A DNA stretch of 32,981 nucleotides from a virus. Position 1 is the stretch's first letter, and every line of letters starts with the position of its first letter. Made by a program: the position numbers and the translations under genes. This document shows positions 13,293-32,783 of the stretch, piece by piece. The DNA is taken from positions 1-32,981 of the IMG/VR virus record IMGVR_UViG_3300023116_000181. One strand, given 5' to 3'. Under the pieces are notes generated by a model. It saw only the letters and a program-made list of their open reading frames with translations. It was not told the DNA's origin and searched no databases.

Positions 13293-13895
13293 TTACCCTG
13301 CTAAACTCTGAATACGCACTGTGTAGTCTATTTGAATAAGTCTATTCAAACTCTTCTGCACAGGATGAAAAATAACATGAGTGATTAGTCTGCCGTCACC
13401 TGAAGAACTGTAGCTTCTTAACCCTAGTTCATCAAATACATATGCATCATCTGTATTTGTTGCTGTGTCAAATGCAAGTTGGCCGCTCGGCTCACCATAA
13501 TCAAGCAAACAACTAACTATAACATCAGTATAATTAGTTCCGCTTACGTGTCTAATTTCTGTATAGTTACGTGCAGGATCTAGATTGTTAACGCTACGAT
13601 CATCAATTACTTTTGTAAAAGTTTGATTGTATAGTGTAGCGTTTGTACCTGTTGAGTTTGGTGTTAGGTATGTAATAATACCACTATCGTCAACACTAGT
13701 ACCTCCATTACCAAAACTCATTTCGTAAATAAATCCTTCGCCAGCATTAGACAGGCTTTCAGCTAATGCTATACTCATATTCTCATAATGAATAGCATTA
13801 CGCTTATCTACGTAAATTTCTTTTGTTTCAGGGTCACTTATTTTTATGTGTCCTTGAACTACTACTCCGTTTTTATCATGCATAATTTCGCTCAT
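13293..13895 (-). CDS. Small conserved virion structural protein
   Basis: The 200-residue protein starts at the ATG at 13895 with AGGA at 13901-13904. It has no signal peptide or membrane segment. Conserved-looking stretches are VVQGHIKISDPETKEIYVD, NAIHYENMSIALAESLS, GFIYEMSFGNGGTSVDDSG, and the beta-rich end IQIDYTVRIQSLAG. I recall similar proteins in T4-like marine phages at this position, annotated only as structural or hypothetical. It lies between the giant baseplate protein and the fibre trio, so a connector between baseplate and fibres is a reasonable guess but not shown. It is shorter than T4 gp8 (334 residues), and I see no sequence basis for equating the two. Confidence 0.8.
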   Translation of the reverse strand: MSEIMHDKNGVVVQGHIKISDPETKEIYVDKRNAIHYENMSIALAESLSNAGEGFIYEMSFGNGGTSVDDSGIITYLTPNSTGTNATLYNQTFTKVIDDRSVNNLDPARNYTEIRHVSGTNYTDVIVSCLLDYGEPSGQLAFDTATNTDDAYVFDELGLRSYSSSGDGRLITHVIFHPVQKSLNRLIQIDYTVRIQSLAG

Positions 13896-13910: not shown

Positions 13911-13920
13911 GTATTTATTC
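13911..13920 (-). promoter_or_regulatory. Candidate late promoter, GAATAAATAC
   Basis: GAATAAATAC on the minus strand overlaps the stop codon of the giant gene (13915-13917) and lies 16 bases before the ATG of the 200-residue gene. It resembles TATAAATA and the other gap motifs in this window, but it differs from them at one more base, and its overlap with a stop codon makes chance more likely. Confidence 0.35.
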
Positions 13921-16900
13921 TGGTAGCGCAGTTGTTCCTGCTCTCAAGAAATATCCTATGTCATTTTGTGTTTCACCTAATGTTGTTCCAGGTTCTGACC
14001 ATAATTTACCAATTTTCCTTACAACAACTACTTTTTCAGCTTCACGAGGTATACTTTGCAGGACAATAGTACTACTTAAAATATTACCCTGTTCATCAAT
14101 ACTATTATCTAATCTAAAATCTGCAGGTAATACAAAATCACCTTTACTACTATCAAGTGCTTTAGTTGGATCAAATACTACTTTTTCATTTTTATTAAGA
14201 CGTCTTCCTCCAACAAACACTTCAAATTCATTAACAGAATTTGCTATAAAATTAAGATCAACAGTATTAGTTCCGTATGTAACTTCTTCCTGTATTTGAG
14301 TTATGTCTTTATAAGGAATTGTTTTACTAATACCTTGGTCATAAACTCCTGTTCCTGCAGGATTTATATCTTTAACACCTGTGCCTAATGTACCTCTACG
14401 TAGTTGACGCAACATATTTTCTTCTTTAACAAAATATTCAATTCTTTCGCCATTAATAAAAATAACTCCCGGAATATTAGAATACTTGTTAGGTTCTGGC
14501 AATCTGCTTGCATCATCTACTTCAATTCTTAAATCATAATAATTTAAATCTTTTACCAATTTTGCTTCAGGGGAATCAAGTCGCTTAAAGTGGGTTCTAT
14601 TAAGCATATCTTTAAATTGTCTAAATGCAAATTTTGGTCTGTTTACTTCTCCAGCAAAATGTACAATATCTATAACGTCATTTTGATTTGGTTTCTTAGA
14701 TAAAATTACAGTTGTTTTATCATCACTTAACCTATAATCTCCACTAGGCGATAGTAACTCTCCGTTAACTGATACCCAAACATATTGAGTATCATGTGCA
14801 GGTTTACGTAATTTAATTTCGCCCACAGTTAATCTTTGATATGTAACATACTGAATGTCTTCTTCAAGCAAAATATCTCGAGTAATTACATCATAATTAA
14901 TTCTTTCAAAAGACTGTATGTTGTGATTACTGAATTTAAATACTTCTACAGATTCATTTTGCGCAGGAGCTACATTAAGTACTAATCTATCACCATTAAT
15001 TTGATATTCACCGTCAGTAACTACAAACACTTCTAATATATCACCTGCATTAGCAATACCTTCAGAAATTTCAATACTGCTAGTAAAAATATCAATCCTC
15101 CAATCAACAGGGGTTGAAAGTTCTTTTCCATTTAAAAACACTCTTAAATCACTTGCTTGTAATGCATTTCCAGGTTGTTGGAATGTTTCTAATTCAAATA
15201 CTTGTAGTGTTGATTGTGTTACATCAAACTGTATACTATATCCTGCATTTAATATTCTATTACCTACTTTAACTAAAACATTATATGCTGTAGGTTCACT
15301 ATAAAATGGTGCTGCTGATAACGTATATTCAACATTATTTCCGTTACCAACAAAACTGTCTTTTGTTACTTGACTATAATTAATCTCATCACTATTATTA
15401 AAGGCTGAATAATGTATTACCTTACCTTCTTCAGGAGTAATTTCAAACAATATTCCTACTCTTGTAGAATTAGGAATTTGTTCTATATAAACAGGAACTT
15501 TAACACCGTCTAGTGTTACATGAACTTGCATATCTTCTACATATTCTAAGTTTGTTTCATAGAATGCCGTAGAACCATCTGCTATAGTTTTTCCAAAATC
15601 AAGTATATCTTGGCCGGTTCTTTCAATTGCTACAATATTAAGCTCTGATGGTGTTAAAGGATTTTCAATTGTTACAGTATTATTTTTCCAATTAATAGTA
15701 TAAGTATTTTCAGATAAAATTACGTCATTAAGTTTAACTATTACAGAAGGATTACTTCCTGGAGTAATACCCAATTTGTAAGTTAATTCTGCTGGACCTG
15801 TACCATCTAAGAAATAATTTTGACATTCTATTCTAGCAGTTCCGCCTGACTCTCTAGTGTAAACTTTAATATCTACCGTATCACTAACGTGTCCCGGAAC
15901 AAACTCTTCCGGGCCGCCTGAAGTTGTTGGTGTTACAAAGCCGTCACCGTCAACTATTATTTCTTCTGCATTTACACCTTTAGCACTTGCATACGCAAGT
16001 GTGCCGCCGGTAAGTTGTGTATCATAACTTTCGGGATCTGGAATAAAACTACCATCACTTGTATTCTTACGTACTATTAATACATCATTATCTAATAATG
16101 TTATGTCATCTGCGCCCAAATCTAATACAGTTGTAACACCGTCACCGGTAATACTTTGCATTAATGCATTTGGGTTATTTATAGTATTAGATGTTCCGTA
16201 ATTAGGATCGTCAACTCTGATTGGAACAAGTTCTCCTGAACGCTTAATATAAACATTATAAATTACATCTTGTTCAAACGGTTCTGGTAATTCAATAGCA
16301 GTAGTAGATCCATCAAATGTGAAAACATAATCTTCGTAACTATTATCAAATTTGTCCCAAGTATCTGTATACCATCCATCTGTATCCCAGCCAGCTGGAC
16401 CACCAAAATCAAAACTTGTTATTTCAACTCCGCCATAGTCAATCCCAGACATAAGCTGTGCTAAATCTTTGCCAAACATATTGTCTAAAGGATCGTACCC
16501 ATGATTAATTCTATCAGATGCTGTTAACATTGAAAGTGGCTTTTTATATTCAACTCTTATGTTAGCCAAGTATGCAGGTGGTGACGTAAAATTAATCTGT
16601 CCTTGAGATCTAGTATAACCTGCATCTTTGTTAGTTACGTTTTTAAAATTATAACTACTTCTTAATTGTTCTACATCATCAATATATACAATTACACTGT
16701 CGTTACGTAAATCCATTGGCCATTCTAAATCAAATTTAGTATTTAAATTGGTTCCGGTGAATTCTTCAATTTGTGCTAATGTTTCAATAAAATAACTTCC
16801 TGAAACTCTATCAAATTTAATAGTAACACTTGGATTTCTAACTACGCCTTTTCCTAAAACAGGAAATGCTTTTGCAGGGGTGCCGCCATCTTGTATTGCA

Positions 16901-19900
16901 CCTTCAATAATGATTGTAGGAGCAGTTATGTATCCAGATCCCTCATTAGTAACTTTAATACTAGTAACTTTGCCATATCCTAAATATGCTTCTGCTGTAG
17001 CGCCAGTGCCGCCACCGCCTTCAATTTTAACAACAGGTTTATAAGTATATCCATTACCGCCATCAGTAACATTTATACTAGTCACTTTATAACCACTATT
17101 ATCTAACCAGTGCTTACGAGGATATATTTTTATATTCTCATCAACATCAACAATTTGAGATCCATTTACTTTTGCAATTGACGGATTAATTGTTTTAGTA
17201 ATATCGTCATATGCAGGAGCAAGATCAAAATCAGTTATAGAACTATTTGTATTATCAAGAGATTCGTAAGAACTTACAAATTCTCTAATAACTGTTTTAT
17301 AAGGTTTTACTTCTTCAATATATGATTTATAACTATCAAGTGTATCTGTATTGAAGGTTACATCTTGTTCTAGGTATCCTAAATTATGTTTTGCTTTTAC
17401 AAAACTTGTTTTAAATGCCCAATCAACATAAGGCTGTTCTGCAAATACATAGCGTAAACTTGCTAAGAACAGCTGATTATATTCTACTTTTAATTTATTA
17501 ATAAAAATATTTTCTTTAATTGCTTTAAAAATAATTCTTAATTCGTTAATAGGATTATTATCATAGAAATAACTATCAAAACTTCTATTATCATATCCTA
17601 CTGTATTTTTAGAATAATCATATAAAGAATCGTTAAATTGTAAAGTACCATTCTCTCGACCTATAGTTTCATAGTTTACTGTATAGTCTTCGGTATCTTC
17701 ATCTGCAATTTTTCTAAGTAATAGCCAACCACCTGTTCCGACGTTATTAATTTTTACAATGTCTGTAATCACATCGTTAACAGATTGTAACTGATTAGAT
17801 TCTTCTATAATAAAGTCAGGTATTGTAAATTCATTATAACCGTCAGCATACCAATCAATGTAAGACCAATATCTCGAAACATCATAATCTTGAATACTTT
17901 TTCTATACCATTCTTTTTTAATTTGATCCCAAGAATAAAGTGCCCATTTGCCTAATACTTCATTATCAGAATTAACCAATACTGTAAACGGCCTTACACC
18001 TATAGTTGTTTTACTGTCGTAACCTTTTCCTGAATTGTTTATTGTAATTTCAGATATTTGTCCTAAATTATTAATAGAAACTGTAAACTCTGCTTCAACA
18101 CCAGTACCATAAATTTTATAGCTTGGCGGACGTTTATATCCTCTACCAGGGTCAGTTATTTTTACACTAACAAGTTTGCCATTGTTAATTATAGGAGTTA
18201 ATTTTGCAGGTGATATTTTATTTGTTCCAACAAATCTTAGTTCTTCAATAGTATCAACAGTAACATCAAATTCATTTGTTACTTCGTTTGGAGCAAGTTC
18301 TTTACTGTTTAACAAACTAATATTATATTCATCAACAATTATATTTTCTTTTAATACAATATTAATACGTTCAATTGCTTGTTTTAACGCTTCGAAGCGA
18401 TTTATAAACATACTTTGACGTGGACGGTTTTGAACTCCATACTTTTGTTTAACAGTTAATTCAGGATTAGGAACTTGTCTGTAATTAGTATCATAACCGA
18501 TTAAACTATCTAACCACTTACGTTCAATATCAGGATGTATTTCGCTTGTTGACAACCCATCACTCATAATGTAATATGCATTATGTACATTTTGTCCTAA
18601 TTTAGGACCGGTTGAATAACGAACATTTAAAACAATATCATCATTATAAATTAAACTGTCGCAATTGTTTAAAATAAATCTATTATCGCCTGCAAAACTA
18701 ATGTGTCTATATCCTTGTTCTCTAGGCTGTGCAATTAATCTTGCAATATCATATACACTCAATGATCTATTTTCAACATCTGGAATAGTTAATTTTCTTT
18801 CAACCCAGAAATAATATTTTGAATTAAAAGTTTGAGAAATATCATCATAAGTAAACTTTCTAGAATATTGTGCATCGCCATAAACACTTGTTCCGCTTAC
18901 TCCGGTTTTCATTCCTATTTCAGTATCAGCTATTTCGTCCCACTGACTAGGAAGTAAACTACTTTCAACCCATTCATATACATCAATACTTGCACCTGGC
19001 TGTAACTCATTCCAATGTGCTTTCTGATACTGTATGTCTCCTTGGTAGGGATATACAAAACGAGCAGTACTTAAATTCCACCAAACTTCACCTACATGCT
19101 CTTCAGCCCAAAATACATCAGTGTCTAAACCAGTATATGTACTAATATTATATTTTGCAGGATCGTATCCTACTTTATGAGTAATTTCTTGTTCTGCGGG
19201 ACCCGCAATTTTGCCTTGTATTGGATCAATGTAATCCAAATAAGTTACAATTTGATTTTGTCTTTTATTGTAAAGGAATGCACCCCTAAGTCTTGAAACA
19301 TCAACCGGTGGCACTAATTCTCTAATTCTATTCCAAGCAAGTAACCCTTTACCTTTTCTGTAATCTACTACTGTACCTACAGAATCTGTTACTTGATTTC
19401 TTGGCATTCCTACATACACATGATTATTATTTGCTAACAATGTTTCGCCAAACATTAATTCTGCTGAAGGATATCTAAAAGACTCTGAGAATACTAATGT
19501 ATCTTCAATATTTTCATAGACGTAAACAACACCAGTGTCTTTAATAATATTTCTAAATTCTGTAAAGCCTAGATCAAACGTAGTTTCATTTTCGTAGCTT
19601 ATATCAAATGTTGTTGGAATTTTCATATCTCCGTTGAGACTAGAAATAACTAAGTTATCAGAACTAAAACTTATACTTGATCCAAATTTTTCGCTTTCTT
19701 CGTTGTTTGGAGACTCTAATGTTTGATAAAACACAAATGCTCCGTTAACTTGTTTATAAATGTGGACTTGACCTTGGTTTATTTTAATATCGTCGTTTGA
19801 AGGTTCACTAATAGCAATTACTGTACCTTGAGGATTGATTTTTACACTATCTGCAAATTCTGTTAAACTGTCACTGCCATCAATTATTTGGCTAACAGAG

Positions 19901-22900
19901 TATTTGTCGCCGTCAAGTCTATAAATAACAACTTGTTTTCTAGTAGAACCAGCAAAACTACTATCAGTATCATCTAAAATACTCACTACTACTAGTATAG
20001 ATCCGTCTAAACTAACATCAAAAGTATGACTAAATTTACTAATATTGTCTGCAGGATCATATACTGTCTCGTCATAAAACGCATTACCAGTTAAATTCGG
20101 CAAATAACCTAAATAATCTAATTCAGATGTAATGAGGGTCCAGTCATTTAAACTTAAAGTACTATTTGCTGCAATGTTAGTCTTTGCTTTATACAATCTA
20201 CCATCAATGTTTACTACAGAATTAATAGCATATGCTTGCGTATTATTATATTCTCCTCTGTAATATTGATCTTTACCTGATTTCCAACTAATATTAATCC
20301 ATTTAGTAGTATCAAATATAGAATTAGTAGTTTGATCTGCTGCTGTTATATCTTTAAGTGCAACATAATAGTCATTAACATGTTTTACAATATTGTTTTG
20401 ACTATAATCATTTAAAGAATTCCAATCTCCGGCAAAATCTTCTTCATCTGTATAACCGTGTTTAAAAATTTCAATAGAACCAGGATCTTCTCTAGTACCA
20501 TTTCCTTCACTAGATATTAATAAAGTGTACAACCCGTCTTTTTTAACAAATTGTACTTTTGACCCAAACTGTCTATTATTAGTAGTGTATTCACTAGTTA
20601 ATATCTTTGTGAGTTGATATGTTCCATTTGATATTTTAACATAAATTGCAACAGCGCCTTCATTATTATAGCCGCTGGCTACACCATATGTGTCTCCCGG
20701 AATGTGATATACTTGTGTATAGTCCTTACTTAATGCGTTTGGAGGATTTGCACTTCTAGCAGCGCCTGGAACATTTGTTGCTTCTTTAAAGAACCAGTAC
20801 TCTTCGTCTGCTATTGGTACAACTTCATTCCAAACAGTTGTAGAATCAAAAGATGAACTTGCTTCAAATACTGCTAATTTACCAGCAGGGCTTGTTGGTC
20901 GATTATCGAGAACCACACTATTATTAAAGTTTTCAATAGTTCCCATTGTACGGTCAACATCGTTATTACCACGGATGCTAGGATTAACAGTATTATTTGC
21001 TCCTGATTTTCTACGTAACTGAATTTTTCCAATATTATTAAGTTCTACCCAGTTACCTGTTATATTTTTAACGTAAACTCTTACAGTATTAAAATTTCTT
21101 TGATAAAATACAACTTCAGCAGTACTTGTAGAATAACTTGTTTGAGCAAGGCCGCCAAACTCGTCAAATGGAGTTTGAATATCTTCAATTATATCTCCAA
21201 TTGCTGGCTCAAATACATTTCCTTGGAAATCAAATTCTGTAAATTCAAAGTCAATATATCCATCCCATAAATCAATAATTGTTTGATTTTTATTTAAAAG
21301 CTCATATGTAAATCCAGAACTAGCTACATCAATTGTTCTATTATCCAAATTATATAAATTAAAATCAATATTAGTTAATCCTGATTCAATTAAATCATCA
21401 AAGTCTCTAGATACTCTAGCTACCCATTTATTACTAGGATATGGTTGTTCAATTCCGCCAGCGTCACCAAAATAACTTAGATGCGTTATAAAACTTGCTC
21501 TATTATTGTTTGTAATATAAGAACCAATTTCACCTACAGTACTTTGTACGTTATAGTACTCGAAAGAATCCCTTGTTTCGTCTGCCCTCAATACATCAAC
21601 ATACACTAGTCCTCGGCCTATATCATAATTTACTCCAGCATTATAATGAAGAGGTGCTGAAATTTTCCAGAAACCGCCCAAATCTTCTGATAGATTATAA
21701 GTATCTTCTTCGGTATATAGACTTATAAATTCATTGTTTAAGAAAAGTTCACCCGAAATATCAAACACACCAGTAACATTATTGATATAAACCACACCAG
21801 AATCTCTATCTGATTCAACATATGCAACCTGTCCTGAACCTGTATCGGTTGTGATCAAATCACCTATTTGAGGAAGTGCTAGATATGCAGGTAATCTAAA
21901 TACATGATCTATCTTCTCCTGTATTGTATGTAAATCGTTAATATAACTTACTGTAATTTCAGGTATTTGTTGATCAAATGGATAATAATTGTCAAGTGTT
22001 GGATATGCATAACTTCTTATGTTCCAATAAAGTTTTATTTTATCACCAACTGCTGTACCTAGGTACATATCTTTTGGTGCTCTAACAAGTATATGATCGG
22101 CTCTAGTTTCTGGTAATCCTGAATTACCTGCTACTAATAATCTAATACTTGTAGAATCTGCATCAGTTCCACTAGCAATATTTGTATACGTATCAAAAGT
22201 CGAAAATGGTTGGCTTCCTATTTGTGGTAAAATCTCTCTATTTGCTCTCCACAAACTTTCTCTATATTTTACAATATCACCTTTAACGTAAGATGCTGGA
22301 TTTTCTTCGGTACCGTTGGGTCCAAAACTATTAAACAATCCTTTAAATTTAGTTTTTACATTACTTGCATTTGGTATGCTAACTGCTAAGTATTGTCCAT
22401 CTTTAGAAACAGAAACACTTTTACCAAATTTTGCATTCTCTATTTCAAAGTAATCTTCCGGAATGCTAATTATAGGATCTTGTACAAAAGGATTAACGTC
22501 TCTAGTACGTCTATAATGGTAAACTTCGCCATTTCCTTTTTCTGGAATACCAAAAAACAAATTGTTGTTATCATCAGTAACTGACATTATTTCGCCAAAG
22601 CGATGCAAGTCGTCATTTATTTCAACTGGATTATTGAATTCATAATTTTGAGAGTATACTGGAGTATTTTTAAATACTCCCCAAGAATCTTCATTATAAT
22701 TATCTACCCAAACTGTTTGATTGTCATATACTTTTTCTTGTACAATAGTATTCAAACCGTCAAGTGTTTCTACTCTAACTTCTCTTAGTTTAATTAATAC
22801 GTAGTTTTCTTGATCAAACTCAATTGCTTCGTTGTTAACAGGCAATTCAATTTGTATTGTTGCACCGCTTATATTATAAATTTTGTACATACCATTTAGT

Positions 22901-25900
22901 GCAAAATCTTGTGCGCCTTTAACTGCAACAATATCTCCTATGTTTAAAATAGGAGCAGCCCATTTATCAAGTGTTAGTGTAAATAATGATTTTCCTCCCG
23001 GTGATGTTGTTTCATTATCAGTTAATGTAGTAACATTTGCAATACTGTTTGAAATTTGATAAACTTTCCAATCGTCGGTAACAGTTCTAGCCAACCAAAT
23101 GTATTCTCCAATTGAAAGTTGATTTATATCTCCGCTATTTAAATCTTCAATTGATCCTGCTTTATATTCAACATCGTCATCATGTACATATCCGCCACTT
23201 ACAACGTATTCTTTAAGTTTAGTTGTTGGGAAAGGTTTATGATCGTAACCTTCTGGTTTATCATAAACTTCATCAGGCTTAATTCTAAATATTTTATCAA
23301 ACGATTCTTTAGGAATAGTATTAACAAGTTCGACACATTGTGGAGATTCTTTAATATCATCTTCTTTAATTATGTATTCAACTTGTTCAATATCGTTTGT
23401 TGCGCCATAACGTCCGACTTGAATTGCCCAATCTTCATAAAATTCAATACTGTCTTTATTTGCACTGCTTAATGGATCAAATAATTTAGTAATAGCATTT
23501 TTAGTACCTTTGTCCTGTATAAATCCTTGATAAAACTTATATTGGCTTACATCATCTGTAATAATATTAGCAAGGTAATTGCGCTTTTGATAACCTATTA
23601 AATGCTGAGCCATACGCTGTTGTTCAGCATCAAAATTATCGCTATCTAAATCATAAAAATCAGCAAACTGATTAATTCTATAGTCAAAGTTAGTAAGTAG
23701 TTTTGGTTCAGGTTTTTCAGAAAGTCTATACCAGTATGTACTAACAAATTCTTCAGAACCAGGAACTTTGTATGTTGCTACATAATAAAATTGTTTATGT
23801 TTAACAAGATCACCGATGTTGTAATCTTTCCATGATTCCCATTCTGTAATTAAAGCTGAATCATAAACAAAACCAGGAATGTTTAATCCGCCATTCCAAT
23901 TGTCTGAGCGGTAGCCTAAAACCTTAATACGTTCTTGTCTATATCCAGTCGAAGGATCATAAATTAAATCATTAAATACTGTTTTATTATCAATTAATAA
24001 CACATGTTCTTTCTGTACTAGCGGCATTGACAAGTTGTATATGCCATCATCCGAATTAACTGATGTTAAGTTAAAACTATTATCTTCTCTAAAAATAGAT
24101 ATATTTTCCTTTGGCAAAACTCTTCCATCAGATTTAAATAAATCATAAGAATAAAACTCATCAAATATATCATCAACTACGCTATATTTTGACTGTAAAA
24201 ATAATTGTTTTGATGCAGGACTTAATGATATTGTTGTTCCGGCTGACCATCCTTGTGTAGTCCAGAATAAAAATTCTCTAGCAGCATGATCCCAATTTTC
24301 TACATAGTTAGTTTCTGTATTAAAGAAATCAAATTGTAAACCTTGCGATTTTAAAAATTCTTCATGTCCTAGTAAGAAGTCTACAACAGCTTGAGAATTT
24401 TTTAACGAAGTGCCGTATGGTAATTTTTTAATACTAGATTTTAAAAAATTACGTCTAAAAATGGCTCTCTTGCCACCTACAATTGGTAGCTCAGGCAATA
24501 TAGCTAAATTATCTGTTTCAAAACTAGTTCCGCTAGTAAAGTTTTTAATAACTCTATAGTATTTGAAATTATTTTCTACTACTTGACCTTTAAAATAATC
24601 TTTATCTTCTTGCCATGTTACTGTACTTTCAGAAATGCCTCCGACAGTTATAGCAACATCAGATGAAGTTGATTTTGTTTCAAAATATTCAAAGTACGGA
24701 GTTGCTTCATTATAACCTCTAATAACAAACCCGCTAGGTTGTTTTTCAACAATAACACCACTATATACTAATGTTTTAACAGGAGAACTAGTATTTAAAA
24801 ATAGCTTATAGTTTTCTTCTGGAACGTATATATTGTTTTCTTGAGTCGTTAGTGGAGTTCTACTATCTAAAATTAGTTTGAATTTAGTCTTATCACTAAA
24901 TCCTCCAATTTTTATACCTAATTGATTAGTAATAGATTTTAAATTTTCTCTATAATCATTATAAACGTTAAGTTGATTACTTGCTACTAAGTTGTATACA
25001 AAATTTACTAATCCAGAAGTAATAATACGAGAAGAATCTTCAACAGTATTAGGCATACGTAGTTGATCTAGTTTTATATTTTTAGCTGTAGTAGAATAAA
25101 CATACTGCCCTGCTAAATTCTTTGTAATCCTAGATTTATCAAATCCTAAACCCATAACTTTTGCAGGTTTGTTTAGTAACCATGCTCTCAATAATGCAAA
25201 TGGGTATTCAGAACTTTTCCTCCAAGCACTTTCTACAGGACTATAATCACCAAATACAAACCCTGCAGGAGTATTTCTAAAAAATGGGTTTTGTGCGTAG
25301 TTTGATTCAATAGGATGCTTTAAATTACCTTGACCGTCTACAGGAACAAAGTTAGCTAACCCAGGTCTAATATAGTTGTTTAATACTCTTATTTGTTTGC
25401 CAGGTTCTTTAACATATCCATTTTCTAAATCGCTCCACATGTTAAGGTTATTACCTGTGTAAGGAGCAGGACCATATACTTCATTCCACCAACTAGGTTT
25501 AATACTAAAGCCTAACATTTCCCAAGGATGTGTGTGTGGACGATCTGTATCGTAAACTTCTTTATAAACTCCTCGCCAAAATCCTGGTAGATATTCACCG
25601 TCTACTACGCTGTTCATTTTAGCATAGTTAAATGTAAACGGATTAGTTCTATCATAAAAATTATTTAAAGTGTAGTCATTGTCAACTAGTTTTAACCACT
25701 GAATAAAATCTTTTAATAGTGTGTTATTAATTTGTGTTCTTGTATAATCTGTTTTTCTAAATTTGCTTGGAACAAAATTATCAATATCAAGATAAGATTT
25801 GTCATATTTAGATTTAATGTTGTTAAATATCCTGCTTTCAAATTCTAAAAGCAAGTTATCTCTATAATCTTTCCATGCTTTAACTAAACTTCCATCATGC

Positions 25901-28900
25901 CCTTGTATCATTGCTATACCAGGAACATGTTCTTCATAATCAAAAGTATCTTGCCCGCCTAGAGTAGTTCCAGTTACAGGGGCATAAAAAATCTTATTCA
26001 ATCCTTTAAATTGTATTTTAATACTTAAAGAATTTGTATCAGCGTTTTCTGCTTGTTTTTTATTGTTATATAACGGATAAAACCAACCAGACTTTCCAAC
26101 TTGATCACTAAAAGTATCAATTTCTCCATATACTTTAAAAGGGCTAGATGTTGTATTAGCATCTGTTGATATAAAAGTATCATTAATAACTATCTGTGGT
26201 TGAAATTTAGGATACAACCCTAGTTTGGTTGGAGTAGGTGGAATATAACTACCATCAGTGTTGCTATATTCATAAATTTCAATTATATCACCTTCTTTCT
26301 GGTAGCTTTCGATTATTACAAATCCACCATTATCAAACGTATAATCAATTTCGTTTAATAATTGTTTACCGTTTAAGTAAATTAAAACACTTTGAGCTGT
26401 AAGTTCAGTTAATGTAAATTTTTCTGATAATGCATAATATTTTGTTCTAGGATCTAAAACTTCATATTCAATTCTATTTTTTAAATTTCCAATTGGAAGC
26501 ATATCAGAAAAATAAAATGGTTGTGTTTTAATTTTATCTTTATTAATTTGTTTTAATATATTATCAACATGAATCCTAGTAGGACCATCAAATCCTAAAT
26601 TAGTTGCAGTTTCTACAAATACTCTTTTAAATCTCGAATATTCATTTTTACTATTTTCGATTGCCTTAACAATGTTATACTCTTTATTTGTAACATGATA
26701 AAGAGGTAAATTATTTGGGCCGCTGTGTTTTACAAAACGTTTACCAAATATTCCTACATTTCCTAAATCTCTAATATTACTAACACCGGGATGTATTCCA
26801 TTAAATCCTGGAATATCTTCTATCATAGTATTAACATGATCAATAACACTACCTAATGTAAATTCAGTAATTTCTTCATTAAGAGGATTGCGTTCATGGT
26901 TTATTGGAATTTCATAATGTCCATTTACATTTTTAGGCTGACTACTAGTTGTCTTTATAATAACTATATCATCAATTTCGGTATCATTATTAAATGTTAT
27001 AAACGCACGTTTGTTTATTCTATTAATTTCATAATCAATATTGCTAATTTGGAATTTACCGTTTAGAAAAACCGATGTTTTTAAATCAATTAATTCACCT
27101 GCGTTTTCATATACATCAATTTCAAAATTGTTATTAATTTCTGCTGTTGAAACATACTGGCGTAAAACCTTTTGAGTAGTTTCAACAGGAATACTTGACC
27201 AACCGTTAACCCAAGTGTATGTATTAAGATCAGAATATTTTCTTAAATTTGATGTATCAGTACTAATTTCAATTGTGTCATCATCTTGCTGGATTATAAA
27301 TTTATCTGTTAGTAGATTAAATTCAAATACAATATCACCACTATTTTCTAAATTTCTATAAGTTAATGGGAATCCTAATTCTGTATCAGAAACACCTGAT
27401 CCTTCTTTATAAGAAAAAATCTTAGTTCCGCTAAATGTAGTACTATCGAATATTGTAGGATCAGCATATTCGTTTCCTTGAGGACAGCACAAATCAAACA
27501 TAGGTGGCTGATTTGTTTTAGTTTTTATTTGCGAAAGTTTCCATTCACTACCTGTATAATGGAAAGTTTTTCCAGAATAATTAGAACCTTGTTTAACAAA
27601 TACAACCTCATTTTCAATTGGATCTGTGTCGGCTGTTTCTATTAAACTTAGTAATGAATCGTTGCCAATAGTTATACGTTTTACAGTATAAATTTTTCCT
27701 TTAACTAATATATCTGTGTCAGCAGTAAATAGTACTCTCATACCTTGAGCAAGTTCTACACCGTCAACATTATAACCTAATGCTCCTTCAATTGTACTAA
27801 AAACATCTTTAGTAGAAGTGTCAATAAGATCTACATCTTGTTTTGACCCTGTACCATAGTTATATAACTTTAACCCTGCTTCAAATTCAATAATAGGTCT
27901 TCTTGCACGGTGATTTTCATCAACTGCAACAGGTTGATTGTTAACTTTTAATGCATATTCAATTATGTCTCTATGAAACCATCTATTATATCTAGTCCAA
28001 GGATTTCTATCTTGACTTGCTCTGTTAATAACAATGTAATCTCTAGTTCCAGGATATGCACTAGCATTTTCAAAAGGTAGTACATCGTATTCATTATTTC
28101 CATAAGGTACTAAATTAGGATCAGTATATGTGGCAGGAATTACTAAGTCGTTTTCGTTAATAAGTTGAATTTCTGTTCCAACACCTTCAACATAATAGTA
28201 TCCATTTTCGTATTTTGCCGGTGCAGTATTTCCTTGGAACTCAACTTTCATTCCATTTGAAAGTTGTACTCCGTTTGCACTTTTGTATGTTTTCTTGCCA
28301 ATAATATCTGATTCTACATCTAAGAAAGTATTTTCTTCAATATCATATATTTTTACTCTGCCGCTAACATCAACATCGTTGCGACTAATATAGAATAAAT
28401 TGTTAGGTGCATTTACTGGAATAGTAAATTCAATTACACCTTTTTCAATATAAACGTTTGCAACTTCTTCTCCTGCTTCGCCTAATTTTCTAATTCCATC
28501 AGGATAAAGAGTTGAAACATTTTCATCTTCATCAAATGTTACGCTGCCGCTGCTAGGTAGTACAATGTACTCACCTGTATCGTAGTCGTTGCCGTAAAGT
28601 TGTGCATCAAATAAACCCGGGGCCTTTACACCTTCAGACCCTGCAACAATTATTGCATTTCCTGGCGTAAACGATCTCGAAATTGCAAACGCCATAGGGT
28701 GTTCAGGAGTGTCAATTTCAAAACGATATGTTTGGCCTCTATAAAGTTTTAGTGTTGGGTTTGCTGTTTTTCCATCAGGTGTAAATAGATAAGAAACATT
28801 GTCTCCATTATCTACCAAAGTTACTGTATATGTACTAACAACTTCTCTTCCTTGGCCTCTAACAGGAACACTTAAAGGACCAGTGGGCATCCAATAGTAT

Positions 28901-29337
28901 TCACGGAAATTAGCAAACTTGTCCCAATCAATATGAGGGTTCCATGGATACGAAATTTGATTGTTTATTTTACTGTGATCTTCTGTATTAGCACCAAAAT
29001 TTGTGAGCTGATTAATATAATCATTGTAATCTTTATAAAACGTTACATTGTCTAAGTCATCTTTAATTACAACAGCAGGTTCAAACTGGTATGCTTGTCG
29101 CTGATCTGTAACATCATTTACATAAGTGTCGCCCACTTTATAAGCCTTAGCAATAGTCCTGCCAAAGAAGCTATTAATTTTTTCAGCTACACCAGGTTGT
29201 ACTAATTGATCTAATGTAGATTGTAAGAATTTTTTATTTGCTTCTGTTCTAAAGAAACGAGGTAACAAATCTGAAGAAGCTCTTTTATTATTTCCTGGAG
29301 TTGGTAGAGCTGATTCTGTTTGATTTATTTGAGACAT
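13915..29337 (-). CDS. Giant multi-domain baseplate/tail structural protein (position of T4 gp7/gp8)
   Basis: One uninterrupted frame encodes 5140 residues from the ATG at 29337, two bases after the gp6-like stop; GGAGG at 29350-29354 lies inside the end of that gene. Modules by approximate residue: 1-160 conserved head (PRFFRTEANKKFLQST, HIDWDKFANFREYYWMP); 176-320 cupredoxin-like (LYRGQTYRFEIDTPEHPMAF); five CBM5/12-like motifs near 1575, 1830, 2345, 2970 and 3025; 1875-1990 conserved core (FYDLDSDNFDAEQQRMAQHL); FG-GAP-like propeller repeats within 2290-3310; Gly-rich repeats near 3710-3790 and 4082-4162; then many fibre-anchor-like NG..L..DY modules from about 4180 to the end. T4 places gp7 (1032 residues) and gp8 after gp6, and this gene occupies that slot. 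Structural role is firm from context; equivalence to gp7 or gp8 is inferred. Similar large proteins occur in marine T4-like phages. Confidence 0.85.
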   Translation of the reverse strand: MSQINQTESALPTPGNNKRASSDLLPRFFRTEANKKFLQSTLDQLVQPGVAEKINSFFGRTIAKAYKVGDTYVNDVTDQRQAYQFEPAVVIKDDLDNVTFYKDYNDYINQLTNFGANTEDHSKINNQISYPWNPHIDWDKFANFREYYWMPTGPLSVPVRGQGREVVSTYTVTLVDNGDNVSYLFTPDGKTANPTLKLYRGQTYRFEIDTPEHPMAFAISRSFTPGNAIIVAGSEGVKAPGLFDAQLYGNDYDTGEYIVLPSSGSVTFDEDENVSTLYPDGIRKLGEAGEEVANVYIEKGVIEFTIPVNAPNNLFYISRNDVDVSGRVKIYDIEENTFLDVESDIIGKKTYKSANGVQLSNGMKVEFQGNTAPAKYENGYYYVEGVGTEIQLINENDLVIPATYTDPNLVPYGNNEYDVLPFENASAYPGTRDYIVINRASQDRNPWTRYNRWFHRDIIEYALKVNNQPVAVDENHRARRPIIEFEAGLKLYNYGTGSKQDVDLIDTSTKDVFSTIEGALGYNVDGVELAQGMRVLFTADTDILVKGKIYTVKRITIGNDSLLSLIETADTDPIENEVVFVKQGSNYSGKTFHYTGSEWKLSQIKTKTNQPPMFDLCCPQGNEYADPTIFDSTTFSGTKIFSYKEGSGVSDTELGFPLTYRNLENSGDIVFEFNLLTDKFIIQQDDDTIEISTDTSNLRKYSDLNTYTWVNGWSSIPVETTQKVLRQYVSTAEINNNFEIDVYENAGELIDLKTSVFLNGKFQISNIDYEINRINKRAFITFNNDTEIDDIVIIKTTSSQPKNVNGHYEIPINHERNPLNEEITEFTLGSVIDHVNTMIEDIPGFNGIHPGVSNIRDLGNVGIFGKRFVKHSGPNNLPLYHVTNKEYNIVKAIENSKNEYSRFKRVFVETATNLGFDGPTRIHVDNILKQINKDKIKTQPFYFSDMLPIGNLKNRIEYEVLDPRTKYYALSEKFTLTELTAQSVLIYLNGKQLLNEIDYTFDNGGFVIIESYQKEGDIIEIYEYSNTDGSYIPPTPTKLGLYPKFQPQIVINDTFISTDANTTSSPFKVYGEIDTFSDQVGKSGWFYPLYNNKKQAENADTNSLSIKIQFKGLNKIFYAPVTGTTLGGQDTFDYEEHVPGIAMIQGHDGSLVKAWKDYRDNLLLEFESRIFNNIKSKYDKSYLDIDNFVPSKFRKTDYTRTQINNTLLKDFIQWLKLVDNDYTLNNFYDRTNPFTFNYAKMNSVVDGEYLPGFWRGVYKEVYDTDRPHTHPWEMLGFSIKPSWWNEVYGPAPYTGNNLNMWSDLENGYVKEPGKQIRVLNNYIRPGLANFVPVDGQGNLKHPIESNYAQNPFFRNTPAGFVFGDYSPVESAWRKSSEYPFALLRAWLLNKPAKVMGLGFDKSRITKNLAGQYVYSTTAKNIKLDQLRMPNTVEDSSRIITSGLVNFVYNLVASNQLNVYNDYRENLKSITNQLGIKIGGFSDKTKFKLILDSRTPLTTQENNIYVPEENYKLFLNTSSPVKTLVYSGVIVEKQPSGFVIRGYNEATPYFEYFETKSTSSDVAITVGGISESTVTWQEDKDYFKGQVVENNFKYYRVIKNFTSGTSFETDNLAILPELPIVGGKRAIFRRNFLKSSIKKLPYGTSLKNSQAVVDFLLGHEEFLKSQGLQFDFFNTETNYVENWDHAAREFLFWTTQGWSAGTTISLSPASKQLFLQSKYSVVDDIFDEFYSYDLFKSDGRVLPKENISIFREDNSFNLTSVNSDDGIYNLSMPLVQKEHVLLIDNKTVFNDLIYDPSTGYRQERIKVLGYRSDNWNGGLNIPGFVYDSALITEWESWKDYNIGDLVKHKQFYYVATYKVPGSEEFVSTYWYRLSEKPEPKLLTNFDYRINQFADFYDLDSDNFDAEQQRMAQHLIGYQKRNYLANIITDDVSQYKFYQGFIQDKGTKNAITKLFDPLSSANKDSIEFYEDWAIQVGRYGATNDIEQVEYIIKEDDIKESPQCVELVNTIPKESFDKIFRIKPDEVYDKPEGYDHKPFPTTKLKEYVVSGGYVHDDDVEYKAGSIEDLNSGDINQLSIGEYIWLARTVTDDWKVYQISNSIANVTTLTDNETTSPGGKSLFTLTLDKWAAPILNIGDIVAVKGAQDFALNGMYKIYNISGATIQIELPVNNEAIEFDQENYVLIKLREVRVETLDGLNTIVQEKVYDNQTVWVDNYNEDSWGVFKNTPVYSQNYEFNNPVEINDDLHRFGEIMSVTDDNNNLFFGIPEKGNGEVYHYRRTRDVNPFVQDPIISIPEDYFEIENAKFGKSVSVSKDGQYLAVSIPNASNVKTKFKGLFNSFGPNGTEENPASYVKGDIVKYRESLWRANREILPQIGSQPFSTFDTYTNIASGTDADSTSIRLLVAGNSGLPETRADHILVRAPKDMYLGTAVGDKIKLYWNIRSYAYPTLDNYYPFDQQIPEITVSYINDLHTIQEKIDHVFRLPAYLALPQIGDLITTDTGSGQVAYVESDRDSGVVYINNVTGVFDISGELFLNNEFISLYTEEDTYNLSEDLGGFWKISAPLHYNAGVNYDIGRGLVYVDVLRADETRDSFEYYNVQSTVGEIGSYITNNNRASFITHLSYFGDAGGIEQPYPSNKWVARVSRDFDDLIESGLTNIDFNLYNLDNRTIDVASSGFTYELLNKNQTIIDLWDGYIDFEFTEFDFQGNVFEPAIGDIIEDIQTPFDEFGGLAQTSYSTSTAEVVFYQRNFNTVRVYVKNITGNWVELNNIGKIQLRRKSGANNTVNPSIRGNNDVDRTMGTIENFNNSVVLDNRPTSPAGKLAVFEASSSFDSTTVWNEVVPIADEEYWFFKEATNVPGAARSANPPNALSKDYTQVYHIPGDTYGVASGYNNEGAVAIYVKISNGTYQLTKILTSEYTTNNRQFGSKVQFVKKDGLYTLLISSEGNGTREDPGSIEIFKHGYTDEEDFAGDWNSLNDYSQNNIVKHVNDYYVALKDITAADQTTNSIFDTTKWINISWKSGKDQYYRGEYNNTQAYAINSVVNIDGRLYKAKTNIAANSTLSLNDWTLITSELDYLGYLPNLTGNAFYDETVYDPADNISKFSHTFDVSLDGSILVVVSILDDTDSSFAGSTRKQVVIYRLDGDKYSVSQIIDGSDSLTEFADSVKINPQGTVIAISEPSNDDIKINQGQVHIYKQVNGAFVFYQTLESPNNEESEKFGSSISFSSDNLVISSLNGDMKIPTTFDISYENETTFDLGFTEFRNIIKDTGVVYVYENIEDTLVFSESFRYPSAELMFGETLLANNNHVYVGMPRNQVTDSVGTVVDYRKGKGLLAWNRIRELVPPVDVSRLRGAFLYNKRQNQIVTYLDYIDPIQGKIAGPAEQEITHKVGYDPAKYNISTYTGLDTDVFWAEEHVGEVWWNLSTARFVYPYQGDIQYQKAHWNELQPGASIDVYEWVESSLLPSQWDEIADTEIGMKTGVSGTSVYGDAQYSRKFTYDDISQTFNSKYYFWVERKLTIPDVENRSLSVYDIARLIAQPREQGYRHISFAGDNRFILNNCDSLIYNDDIVLNVRYSTGPKLGQNVHNAYYIMSDGLSTSEIHPDIERKWLDSLIGYDTNYRQVPNPELTVKQKYGVQNRPRQSMFINRFEALKQAIERINIVLKENIIVDEYNISLLNSKELAPNEVTNEFDVTVDTIEELRFVGTNKISPAKLTPIINNGKLVSVKITDPGRGYKRPPSYKIYGTGVEAEFTVSINNLGQISEITINNSGKGYDSKTTIGVRPFTVLVNSDNEVLGKWALYSWDQIKKEWYRKSIQDYDVSRYWSYIDWYADGYNEFTIPDFIIEESNQLQSVNDVITDIVKINNVGTGGWLLLRKIADEDTEDYTVNYETIGRENGTLQFNDSLYDYSKNTVGYDNRSFDSYFYDNNPINELRIIFKAIKENIFINKLKVEYNQLFLASLRYVFAEQPYVDWAFKTSFVKAKHNLGYLEQDVTFNTDTLDSYKSYIEEVKPYKTVIREFVSSYESLDNTNSSITDFDLAPAYDDITKTINPSIAKVNGSQIVDVDENIKIYPRKHWLDNSGYKVTSINVTDGGNGYTYKPVVKIEGGGGTGATAEAYLGYGKVTSIKVTNEGSGYITAPTIIIEGAIQDGGTPAKAFPVLGKGVVRNPSVTIKFDRVSGSYFIETLAQIEEFTGTNLNTKFDLEWPMDLRNDSVIVYIDDVEQLRSSYNFKNVTNKDAGYTRSQGQINFTSPPAYLANIRVEYKKPLSMLTASDRINHGYDPLDNMFGKDLAQLMSGIDYGGVEITSFDFGGPAGWDTDGWYTDTWDKFDNSYEDYVFTFDGSTTAIELPEPFEQDVIYNVYIKRSGELVPIRVDDPNYGTSNTINNPNALMQSITGDGVTTVLDLGADDITLLDNDVLIVRKNTSDGSFIPDPESYDTQLTGGTLAYASAKGVNAEEIIVDGDGFVTPTTSGGPEEFVPGHVSDTVDIKVYTRESGGTARIECQNYFLDGTGPAELTYKLGITPGSNPSVIVKLNDVILSENTYTINWKNNTVTIENPLTPSELNIVAIERTGQDILDFGKTIADGSTAFYETNLEYVEDMQVHVTLDGVKVPVYIEQIPNSTRVGILFEITPEEGKVIHYSAFNNSDEINYSQVTKDSFVGNGNNVEYTLSAAPFYSEPTAYNVLVKVGNRILNAGYSIQFDVTQSTLQVFELETFQQPGNALQASDLRVFLNGKELSTPVDWRIDIFTSSIEISEGIANAGDILEVFVVTDGEYQINGDRLVLNVAPAQNESVEVFKFSNHNIQSFERINYDVITRDILLEEDIQYVTYQRLTVGEIKLRKPAHDTQYVWVSVNGELLSPSGDYRLSDDKTTVILSKKPNQNDVIDIVHFAGEVNRPKFAFRQFKDMLNRTHFKRLDSPEAKLVKDLNYYDLRIEVDDASRLPEPNKYSNIPGVIFINGERIEYFVKEENMLRQLRRGTLGTGVKDINPAGTGVYDQGISKTIPYKDITQIQEEVTYGTNTVDLNFIANSVNEFEVFVGGRRLNKNEKVVFDPTKALDSSKGDFVLPADFRLDNSIDEQGNILSSTIVLQSIPREAEKVVVVRKIGKLWSEPGTTLGETQNDIGYFLRAGTTALPE

Positions 29338-29339
29338 TG

Positions 29340-32300
29340 TTAGTATGAACCTCCGCTAGAACTTTGTACTCCACTAGTACTGCTTGATACGCTTGTAATT
29401 ACAGTACCGCTTGACTGTAAGTTTGATGCTGTGATTTCGTCAACTATTTCAACGTCTGCTACAGTTGCAGCGTTGATGAATATTTCATCAGATTCTGATT
29501 TTATTTCAAACAAACTACCAAAAGTTTGACTTGTTTGTTTTGGAACAATTACTATGCTGACTAGTTCTGGTGATAAGCTATTCATTACATACGCACTAAG
29601 TTCTTGGAAATAAAATGTATCTCCAAAATTCCAATATTCAATACTAAAAAATCTATTAACTGAATCGATAACGTTTGCTTTTAATTCATTGTTATTAATA
29701 GTTAGTCCTGGATTTTTTACTATTTTAAATGTAACTTGTAAATCTTCTCTAGCTTTACTTCCAAACAGCATTTTATACTTAACTGGATGATAAATTACTT
29801 CATCACTAATTGATTTGATTTTCGCAATATCACTTCCGTAACTTCTATACAATTGATCACTGCTAGGAGGTAATGGTTTTGTAGGTATTGTGCCGTTTAA
29901 ATATTTTCTATATTGTGTATCATAATTCTTAGTTAACAGGTATACATCAATAATATTTGAAGATCCTGGATCAATTCTGTAATTACTATCGGCAACATGC
30001 ACATAATGAAATTTTAATCCACTACGTCCAGTAAACGCTTTATATTCGCTTGTAATGTCTATACTATTATTAACTTTGTCTATTTGTTTAAATACTGCTT
30101 CATCAACTAGATAAAATACTTGATTATTATTATCATATAACGTCCAAGAACCTATAGTTGATTCATTTTGTTTGATAATAATTTCGTTATTAGAATTATC
30201 AAAATATTTGTAATCTTCAACACCGTCTGAAGTTGTATATCTTTGTTGGAAGATTATTTTACTATTAGGACTAACTGTTGGAGCTACTATGTCATCAAAT
30301 AGATCAGGATTATCAATTATACCGTCATCGTCTTGATCAAAGAACTTAACTTGTATTTTTCTAGTGTCAACATAACCATCTGCATCTCTATAAGCATCTG
30401 TTATAGACCATTTATAATCTTGAGTAAATGGGTTAAGACTATCTGGTGCTCTGTTAATATTTAATACTTCAATTTTGTCTTTAATAAGTTGACCAGATTT
30501 TGGATCATAAATTTTGTCAGCACTATCAAAGAAAAATCTTATTTCATCTTTACTTTCAAATATGTATCTTAAACCTCTGTAAGTAATAGTGTAAGTATCT
30601 CCATTGGTTTTAAAATAAAGCAACCAACTTGAATCTAAATTTTGTCCATTTGTATCGCCTGCCTTACCTACACTAAAATCATTATTTGTGTTAATATTTT
30701 CTGCTGTTATTAACTTCCACTGTCTGTCTGACTGATCATATCGTAAAGCATAATCTTTGTATGCAAATGTTCTATCAATAATTTGTGCTTTAATATCGTC
30801 TATTAAAATTCTTGATAGTTTCGGTATTAGTGATGATAATATAGCACCTTCAGGAATATAATCATTAAACACTACTGGGCCCGAACCATTGTTTTCTAAA
30901 GTTGTTCCGTCACTGTATACACTTATTACTTTAGACCATTTATATGTACTAATACCTAGCAAAGATGCATCAGTTGTTAATGAGCCGTCTTCTTTAAAAT
31001 ATTGTACATTTCCTGATGAGTCAACAGGTGCAATAAATTTACACAATGTACCTGGTTCAAAAAATCTTAAACTATTTGCAGTATAAGAGCCTAACGTAAA
31101 TTTAATACCTTCATTGTGGAAAAATCCAGTTGTTCTATTTGTAGCAGATGTTGTTAAATTCCACGCTGCTCCTAAATCTTCAACAATTACTTTATTGTAT
31201 TTTGACAAGTAAAAATTCATTGTATCTGTATTTGAAAGTAACGGTTCAATTATATTGTAAATTGCTCCTTCAATATCACTTTGTGTTACAAAACTAAAAC
31301 TTGTTTTATTTGTATATTCTTCTTTATATACAATTCCGTCATCAGCAAACAAACTTGTGTTAGAATATTTTCCGCTAGGATCTTTAAGATCATAGTATCT
31401 ACTAATTCCGCTTGCAATTCTATTGACAGATTTTGTTTTAATGATATCTTGACTAATACCTAAAGGACCAATATTATAATCTTCTGCTGTTATTAATCTA
31501 TTTTGAGTATAATATGTTGCAGGTGCATTTTGTTTAACGTCTATATCAGATTCAGTAGTTGTTCCATTACTTACAGTTTGTTTTAAACTTAATCCAATTG
31601 TAAGAACTTCTGCTGTATTATTTTTACTAATATAAGGTATTTCAATAGAAATGTTAGTTAATGAACTAGGATTAATAATAATGTTTCTATTTGCACTAGT
31701 TCTATAATATATTTTAAAGTTACCAGACGGTAAGTTGCCAAAGATACCGTCGCTGAATACAAGATTAATTCTGTCTTCAATTCTAGATGTTACAGCATAA
31801 ACATTTCTTACACCCTTAAACAAACTATTATAGATAATGTTATTACCTTCGACTGCTTCTAGTTTATTCCAAAGTGCATTTTCAAAACCATTTGAATCTA
31901 CACTATAAAGCCAAACATCTGAATTGTTAATGTTTATTGAATCAATTGCTACTGTTTGGTTTGGTGTTGGATTGTCTATTCCAAATGTTCCGGTATCTAA
32001 ACGTCCTTGACGGAAATGCATAAAAAATCCGCTATTAGATGAACCTGCTCCTTGACCGTTGTCTCTGTAAAGTATAGTAGGATTATTACCAGGCAATGGC
32101 GGCTCTTCGACGATATTTCCATTTTCAATATTTGAACTAGTAACTTCAAAACGTGTGCTTACACCTTCTACATTTCTTGTAAAAGGAAATATAGGTACAT
32201 CAGTATTAGTTGCATTAAAACGGTATACTTCTGTAGAAACACCAGAAATTACTTCTGAGTTAACCGGGCGGCCAAATGTTCCATTTACAGGAAGTGCAGC

Positions 32301-32783
32301 ATTCATAATTTTAATAAATTGTTCAAGATAGTTAGTGTTTGATCTATCATTCCATAAAATTGTTAAACCTGCTAAATTTAAACCAGTACTATCAATTACA
32401 GTTTCAGTAGTTTTAACTGTATCAACTTTTAGTAAACCGTTTGCTGCTTGGTTACGTGTTACATTATAAGACAACAAACGTGCAAGACGTAGTATACTTT
32501 CTCTACGTTCTGCTGTTTCGAGGAAGTTTTCTCTAGCGTTTAAATCAATACGGAATGATAAGTTTTGCCCGAGGAAAGCAATCATATCAATTAGTGCAAG
32601 ATATTCACTTGACTCAATGTAATCGTTAAAATCTTCTGGATAGTTTTGACGCAGATAGTTAATCATCGTGCGACGAAGGTTGTCAAAATCGTAACTCTGG
32701 AAATCAGCGTTACGGAAAGATTGGTAAATTGCTTTCCAATCTTCTGTTACTAAAAGTCTTGATTGTCTGTCAGTTGAAGACAT
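29340..32783 (-). CDS. gp6: Baseplate wedge subunit, gp6-like
   Basis: The 1147-residue protein starts at the ATG at 32783, with GAGGA at 32792-32796. The N-terminus shows the gp6 signature: NYPEDFNDYIESSEYLALID, AFLGQNLSFRIDLNARENFL, RRESILRLARLLSYNVTR. The centre has ITAEDYNIGPLGISQDIIK and GISRYYDLKDPSGKYS, and the C-terminal part has FKIVKNPGLTINNNELKANV and FFSIEYWNFGDTFYFQELS, as in the baseplate-J/gp6 core. In T4, gp6 forms the iris-like ring of the wedge around the hub and contacts gp7, gp25 and gp53. T4 gp6 has 660 residues; the extra length lies mainly between the two conserved ends and includes an EF-hand-like loop at residues 816-827. It follows the gp25-like gene as in T4. Identification is strong. 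Confidence 0.93.
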   Translation of the reverse strand: MSSTDRQSRLLVTEDWKAIYQSFRNADFQSYDFDNLRRTMINYLRQNYPEDFNDYIESSEYLALIDMIAFLGQNLSFRIDLNARENFLETAERRESILRLARLLSYNVTRNQAANGLLKVDTVKTTETVIDSTGLNLAGLTILWNDRSNTNYLEQFIKIMNAALPVNGTFGRPVNSEVISGVSTEVYRFNATNTDVPIFPFTRNVEGVSTRFEVTSSNIENGNIVEEPPLPGNNPTILYRDNGQGAGSSNSGFFMHFRQGRLDTGTFGIDNPTPNQTVAIDSININNSDVWLYSVDSNGFENALWNKLEAVEGNNIIYNSLFKGVRNVYAVTSRIEDRINLVFSDGIFGNLPSGNFKIYYRTSANRNIIINPSSLTNISIEIPYISKNNTAEVLTIGLSLKQTVSNGTTTESDIDVKQNAPATYYTQNRLITAEDYNIGPLGISQDIIKTKSVNRIASGISRYYDLKDPSGKYSNTSLFADDGIVYKEEYTNKTSFSFVTQSDIEGAIYNIIEPLLSNTDTMNFYLSKYNKVIVEDLGAAWNLTTSATNRTTGFFHNEGIKFTLGSYTANSLRFFEPGTLCKFIAPVDSSGNVQYFKEDGSLTTDASLLGISTYKWSKVISVYSDGTTLENNGSGPVVFNDYIPEGAILSSLIPKLSRILIDDIKAQIIDRTFAYKDYALRYDQSDRQWKLITAENINTNNDFSVGKAGDTNGQNLDSSWLLYFKTNGDTYTITYRGLRYIFESKDEIRFFFDSADKIYDPKSGQLIKDKIEVLNINRAPDSLNPFTQDYKWSITDAYRDADGYVDTRKIQVKFFDQDDDGIIDNPDLFDDIVAPTVSPNSKIIFQQRYTTSDGVEDYKYFDNSNNEIIIKQNESTIGSWTLYDNNNQVFYLVDEAVFKQIDKVNNSIDITSEYKAFTGRSGLKFHYVHVADSNYRIDPGSSNIIDVYLLTKNYDTQYRKYLNGTIPTKPLPPSSDQLYRSYGSDIAKIKSISDEVIYHPVKYKMLFGSKAREDLQVTFKIVKNPGLTINNNELKANVIDSVNRFFSIEYWNFGDTFYFQELSAYVMNSLSPELVSIVIVPKQTSQTFGSLFEIKSESDEIFINAATVADVEIVDEITASNLQSSGTVITSVSSSTSGVQSSSGGSY
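30303..30338 (-). other. EF-hand/dockerin-like calcium-binding loop in the gp6-like protein
   Basis: Residues 816-827 read DQDDDGIIDNPD. Acidic side chains at loop positions 1, 3, 5, 9 and 12 and the Gly at position 6 fit the 12-residue EF-hand calcium loop, with Asp replacing the usual Glu at position 12. The flanking helices of a classical EF-hand are not evident, so a dockerin-type or thrombospondin-type loop is as likely. Confidence 0.55.

Follow-up and report, generated by a model that had tools for sequence, protein, structure and literature searches.

The 32,981-base virus contig IMGVR_UViG_3300023116_000181, a complete record that we refer to as the window, encodes a giant protein of 5,140 amino acids (aa). 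It is probably a baseplate structural protein of jumbo myoviruses of the RaK2/PA5oct/Atu_ph07 type, here in a large marine-type phage, and most likely the wedge-organizing subunit that stands in place of T4 gp7. The gene (13915..29337) is one uninterrupted ATG-to-stop frame of 5,140 codons, and the initial annotation of this DNA was thus right in describing a single intact 15.4-kilobase (kb) frame behind a gp6-like gene. The protein belongs to PHROG 10938, the giant virion proteins of jumbo myoviruses; it is a new member of a poorly studied but already recorded family of these phages, and not an oddity of this contig.

The gene and its family

The giant gene and its neighbors lie on the minus strand, which the initial annotation had not stated and which holds for all features of the giant given below. 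Transcription runs from right to left, through the gp6-like gene (32783-29340), the giant gene (29337-13915), a 200-aa gene (13895-13293) and a tail-collar/gp10-like gene (13280-11208). The gp6-like baseplate wedge gene directly upstream (29340..32783, minus strand; 1147 aa) matches PHROG 10646 (E 2.5e-292) and PHROG 219, the T4 gp6 family (E 3.5e-22). The giant starts 2 bases past the gp6-like stop, and the 200-aa gene begins 19 bases beyond the giant.

That this gene is real and conserved was confirmed by comparison with related contigs. No internal stops were found at the match region of the giant frame in any of the 23 close IMG/VR relatives searched, and the giant is a single intact frame, 4,451-5,583 aa long, in all 22 close relatives that were fetched. 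The ratio of nonsynonymous to synonymous substitutions (dN/dS) against five relatives was 0.20-0.49 in each fifth of the gene, indicating purifying selection, with the peak mostly in a propeller-like stretch; these values are rough because synonymous sites are near saturation. Of 165 loci, 160 have a gp6-like open reading frame immediately ahead of the giant, with a median overlap of one base. Intact relatives, low dN/dS and the maintained gp6-giant order together exclude a chance open frame. The order likewise upholds the initial placement as far as the gp7 slot, the position after gp6; the next gene is not gp8.

A few loci depart from the single long frame. In contig L221 the giant seemed to be split into two genes (2241 + 1529 aa), but this was put down to a frameshift, as contig L220 has one frame there and both flanks are 100% identical. 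The proteins of these two contigs are identical, and the L221 frameshift is an assembly or sequencing error, a pitfall for annotation; splits in L201 and L207 likewise look like frameshifts. Natural short forms were found in L229 and L238 (2,492 and 2,608 aa, 49% identical to each other), where the protein stops near window residue 3620 and is followed by another frame lacking a PHROG match, 1,416 aa long in L238 and truncated in L229, where the contig stops. Since these giants end near residue 3620, the C-terminal string of domains described below is dispensable in some lineages.

Membership in the family rests on the PHROG 10938 profile ("virion structural protein", 3,324 positions), which matches three separate 1000-aa pieces of the giant with E values of 3e-99, 2e-138 and 5e-68. 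By tblastn, 87 phage records match the giant, every one at less than 60% identity, chiefly Asteriusvirus (121Q, PBECO4), RaK2, K64-1, Munch, PA5oct, Atu_ph07, SCTP-2 and a Vibrio phage. The named jumbo homologues have 3,323-4,449 aa (RaK2 ORF070, 3326; 121Q gp582, 3323; CBB_236, 3340; PA5oct gp355, 3857; Atu_ph07 gp180, 4449) and are 700-1800 residues shorter than the window giant, but in all five phages the gene adjoins gp6, directly after it, and the core regions can be aligned in order along the chain. Homologues have also been detected in virions, in line with the initial prediction of a virion protein. Mass spectrometry recovered phAPEC6 gp245 (381.88 kDa) with 17 unique peptides (PMC7247149) and CBB_236, which we identified as the 3,340-aa neighbor of gp6, with 21 peptides (PMC5259590), and the sequence record of PA5oct gp355 notes virion detection by electrospray ionization tandem mass spectrometry. 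A full-text search of the 2023 paper on RaK2 adsorption did not turn up the gene product of the homologue.

Comparison with gp7

T4-type gp7 is the initiator of the baseplate wedge and forms a (gp6)2-gp7 complex. At 1,032 aa, T4 gp7 is about one fifth as long as the giant, as the initial annotation had noted, but the surprise it implied at the size is lessened by proteins in the same slot elsewhere. The protein annotated as gp7 in cyanophage P-SSM2 has 5,195 aa, and S-T4 carries an unnamed 4,749-aa frame in the same slot after gp6. Since cyanophage slot proteins span 4.7-5.2 thousand aa and jumbo homologues 3.3-4.4 thousand, giant size alone is not new. The two cyanophage proteins share with the giant the slot after gp6, the size class, a helix-Lys-Gly-helix (KG) motif and GGxGY domains; however, significant alignment to cyanophage gp7 comes only via the mobile GGxGY domain, the KG-motif match is weak, and P-SSM2 also has a recognizable gp8.

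The KG motif is a possible link between all three kinds of protein. T4 gp7 727-913 aligns with P-SSM2 gp7 199-385 around it (hhalign probability 92-95), and a PHROG 964 search matches P-SSM2 only at this segment. In the giant it occupies residues 1931-1973 (YKFYQGFIQDKGTKNAITKLF; 23419..23547), where K1943 and G1944 are invariant in an 84-sequence alignment and an AlphaFold2 model places helices on both sides. When the giant family is aligned with the N-terminal profile of the cyanophages, the best match is at this motif (cyanophage gp7 198-239; hhalign E 0.0047), and none of 100 column-shuffled controls scored as low, the next best reaching 0.0067. T4 gp7 aligns at the same motif with residues ~734-755, not significantly (E 0.3). 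T4 gp7 (5hx2, 5iv5) is like the giant in its gene slot and in this short motif, but it is five times smaller, and no significant sequence or fold similarity between the two was found. Homology to T4 gp7 is thus weakly supported, by the short KG motif; no gp7 fold match was obtained for residues 1155-2070.

Gene content provides a second line of evidence. Seven related jumbo genomes have gp6 and, by profile, no T4-type gp7 or gp8, which makes the giant the best gp7 candidate by elimination. We consider it likely that the giant works like gp7, while membership in the gp7 family is unproven.

The gene 3' of the giant does not supply the missing wedge protein. Each of the 22 close relatives fetched has a homologue of this conserved neighbor (P0003; 200 aa; PHROG 11259; 13293..13895, minus strand) no more than ~25 bases past the giant, the L095 copy being truncated where its contig stops. 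As a candidate gp8 it was rejected both by hhalign and by fold; its predicted structure is beta-rich and confident (mean predicted local distance difference test score, pLDDT, 86.8), with no convincing match in the PDB. P0003 is more conserved than the giant itself, with 72-88% identity in many contigs.

Several observations weigh against a gp7-like wedge organizer. HMMER found no gp7 match in the giant, sequence profiles gave no match to PHROG 964 or to Pfam Gp7_helical, Gp7_5th or Gp7_6th, and the PHROG and Pfam matches listed for 43 family members include no gp7 family. A Foldseek search of the model of residues 1155-2070 against the PDB, where T4 gp7 structures are present, returned no gp7, the matches being a chitin-binding insert and unreliable ones. 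The KG profile also matches an unrelated PDB transport protein (3e78, FYRGMIWIKG), showing that the motif can arise by chance. As the gene next to the giant is not gp8, the locus departs from the gp6-7-8 order of T4. In Salicola phage SCTP-2 (L006) the giant lies ~90 kb from gp6, and a 9.3-kb frame of unknown kind is directly upstream instead. The virion detections, finally, concern homologues only and not the window phage itself.

These points give some weight to a different reading, in which the giant is a peripheral protein of the baseplate or adsorption apparatus, a fiber platform merely encoded after gp6, and the true gp7 equivalent is another, unrecognized protein. The missing gp7 match by sequence or fold, the separation from gp6 in SCTP-2 and an accessory part dominated by fiber-like modules all fit such a protein. 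However, the gp6-giant order is nearly invariant, the core is kept in phages with quite different fibers (RaK2, Atu_ph07, PA5oct), and the KG motif is in register with cyanophage gp7. We regard a fiber platform as the most credible alternative, yet distinctly less probable than a wedge organizer.

Core and inserted domains

The initial annotation had seen in the protein a conserved head and core, together with many domains that looked inserted, and alignments with homologues agree. With far homologues, residues 1-150, 440-1030, 1155-2070 and 3330-4060 align as a core, and residues 151-440, 2070-3330 and 4060-5140 are variable. The N-terminal head (residues 1-150, LPRFFRT...HIDWDKFxNFREYYW; 28888..29337) is aligned in all jumbo homologues, its residues 101-150 being 32-42% identical to them. 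Residues 441-1030 (26248..28017) are covered over most of their length in all homologues. The third core region, residues 1155-2070 (23128..25875), is represented by the 84-sequence alignment and was modeled by AlphaFold2 with a mean pLDDT of 84.0 and a predicted template modeling score (pTM) of 0.68; as noted, no gp7 came up when the PDB was searched with this model. Residues 3330-4060 (17158..19350) are kept in the jumbo homologues, some of which have gaps at 3700-3800.

Among the variable parts, the insert at residues 151-440 (28018..28887) is common to close relatives and found partly in Atu_ph07, and is largely absent in RaK2/121Q. In contigs L218 and L219 the giant's residue 159-338 domain recurs in the frame just ahead of the giant (2-2902), where gp6 would be, so that the module occurs in both genes. 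The window stretch 2000-3350 is mostly missing from the jumbo homologues, Atu_ph07 excepted.

Five modules have the sequence and fold of the ChiA1-type chitin-binding domain (CBM5/12, 1ed7), namely residues 1575-1618 (24484..24615), 1833-1877 (23707..23841), 2345-2391 (22165..22305), 2972-3021 (20275..20424) and 3030-3074 (20116..20250). Their profile matches 1ed7 and deacetylase modules, and for the first module Foldseek also returned 1ed7 (probability 1.00, TMt 0.73); single-sequence Pfam scores fall below the curated cut-off. They share with the ChiA1 domain a fold of ~45 residues and the sequence pattern, and chitin binding by the giant is putative. The second module sits within the core as a clean insertion, the surrounding segment being continuous in six jumbo homologues that lack it at this site. 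Close relatives have 2-6 modules and far homologues at most one, the RaK2, 121Q, CBB, PA5oct and Atu_ph07 proteins having 0-1 compared to five in the window giant.

Residues 2246-3330 (19348..22602) contain beta-propeller-like FG-GAP repeats, about seven blades as counted by eye, interrupted by inserts. Pfam FG-GAP_2 is above cut-off at residues 3207-3237, and a profile of blade 5 recovers a distant blade at residues 2303-2329 (E 2.5e-6), where 1 of 200 shuffles gave E 0.1 or better. An insert of ~520 residues lies inside the propeller (2361-2880; 20698..22257), and the alignment span there falls to 0 in some close relatives. The same two blades are ~165-175 residues apart in L104 and L110, among the shortest close relatives, versus ~860 in the window giant; given this compact spacing, much of the length difference consists of inserts within the propeller.

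Two GGxGY repeat units follow. The first (residues 3700-3790; 17968..18240) aligns with the cyanophage gp7 domain (hhalign probability 96, E 6e-10), but this unit is a mobile domain and not a gp7 marker. The second (residues 4080-4165; 16843..17100) has matches to PHROG 708, 460 and 22827. The C-terminal part (residues 4180-5140; 13918..16800) is a string of beta-sandwich-like units, in which repeats were recognized by eye; it varies between groups and has low identity to far homologues, and PF03906 is below cut-off there.

Proposed role

As a wedge organizer, the giant would be packed on gp6 as a scaffold, in perhaps six copies per baseplate, with a gp7-like contact to gp6. The scaffold that binds gp6 would consist of residues 1-150, 440-1030, 1155-2070 and 3330-3620. 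The inserts, comprising the CBM5/12-like modules, the interrupted propeller, the GGxGY units and the C-terminal sandwich string, may face outward, where they might brace the baseplate rim, carry fibers, or interact weakly with surface sugars. A bolder version of this proposal, which we consider doubtful, is that the wedge organizer derives from a relative of gp7 that became five times larger by taking up domains, among them chitin-binding-like modules and a propeller with inserts of its own, and that the wedge also acts as an adsorption platform which senses sugars and sets off contraction.

It is improbable that the giant frame encodes a precursor whose cleavage during assembly would yield multiple wedge and decoration proteins. 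The modular make-up would suit a precursor, as would the L229 and L238 proteins, in which the C-terminal string is separable or missing, and the published tryptic coverage of homologues (7.6-7.7%) is too low to exclude cleavage (PMC7247149, PMC5259590). However, no evidence of cleavage was found, and the frame is in one piece in all the fetched close relatives, the L201, L207 and L221 splits being apparent frameshifts. Least probable of all is a fusion of several T4 wedge proteins (gp7, gp8, gp10) into one chain, since the absence of a T4-type gp8 gene from the seven related genomes and weak gp10 alignments to the sandwich units (E 0.04-0.06) are outweighed by the lack of a significant gp8, gp9, gp10 or gp11 profile match in any 600-residue slice, which also leaves the initial idea of merged wedge and decoration functions without backing, and by a separate collar/gp10-like gene (P0004) downstream.

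Neighboring genes

Beyond the collar/gp10-like gene, the window continues with two fiber-like genes, then with those of a poly-proline protein and of a repeat protein of 1,682 aa, and ends within the first part of one more gene. P0004, P0005 and P0006 (7712-13280) are consecutive fiber-type proteins that have a related N-terminal domain in common (PHROG 14394/15511) and differ at their C-termini, which are collar/gp10-like in P0004, unmatched in P0005 and of the Peptidase_G2 family (self-cleaving chaperone type) in P0006. P0007 (5501-7702) is a structural protein with domains separated by several long poly-proline tracts, and matches PHROG 29022 on a single stretch. The repeat protein, P0008 (410-5458), has Ser/Thr-rich Ig-like repeats, begins at a TTG codon and matched no PHROG. 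P0009 (2-367) is truncated at the window edge and gave weak matches to 2OG-Fe(II) oxygenase and endonuclease V families (PHROG 61, 2297, 274).

Significance

At least two widespread phage groups, the cyanophages and the RaK2-like jumbo phages, have giant proteins in the gp7 slot, and most of these proteins are annotated merely as "virion structural protein" or as hypothetical. We found no structure of any of them in this analysis. The map of core and inserts tells which parts to express or to seek in a baseplate map, and with it the question of whether these phages have an enlarged gp7 becomes directly testable.

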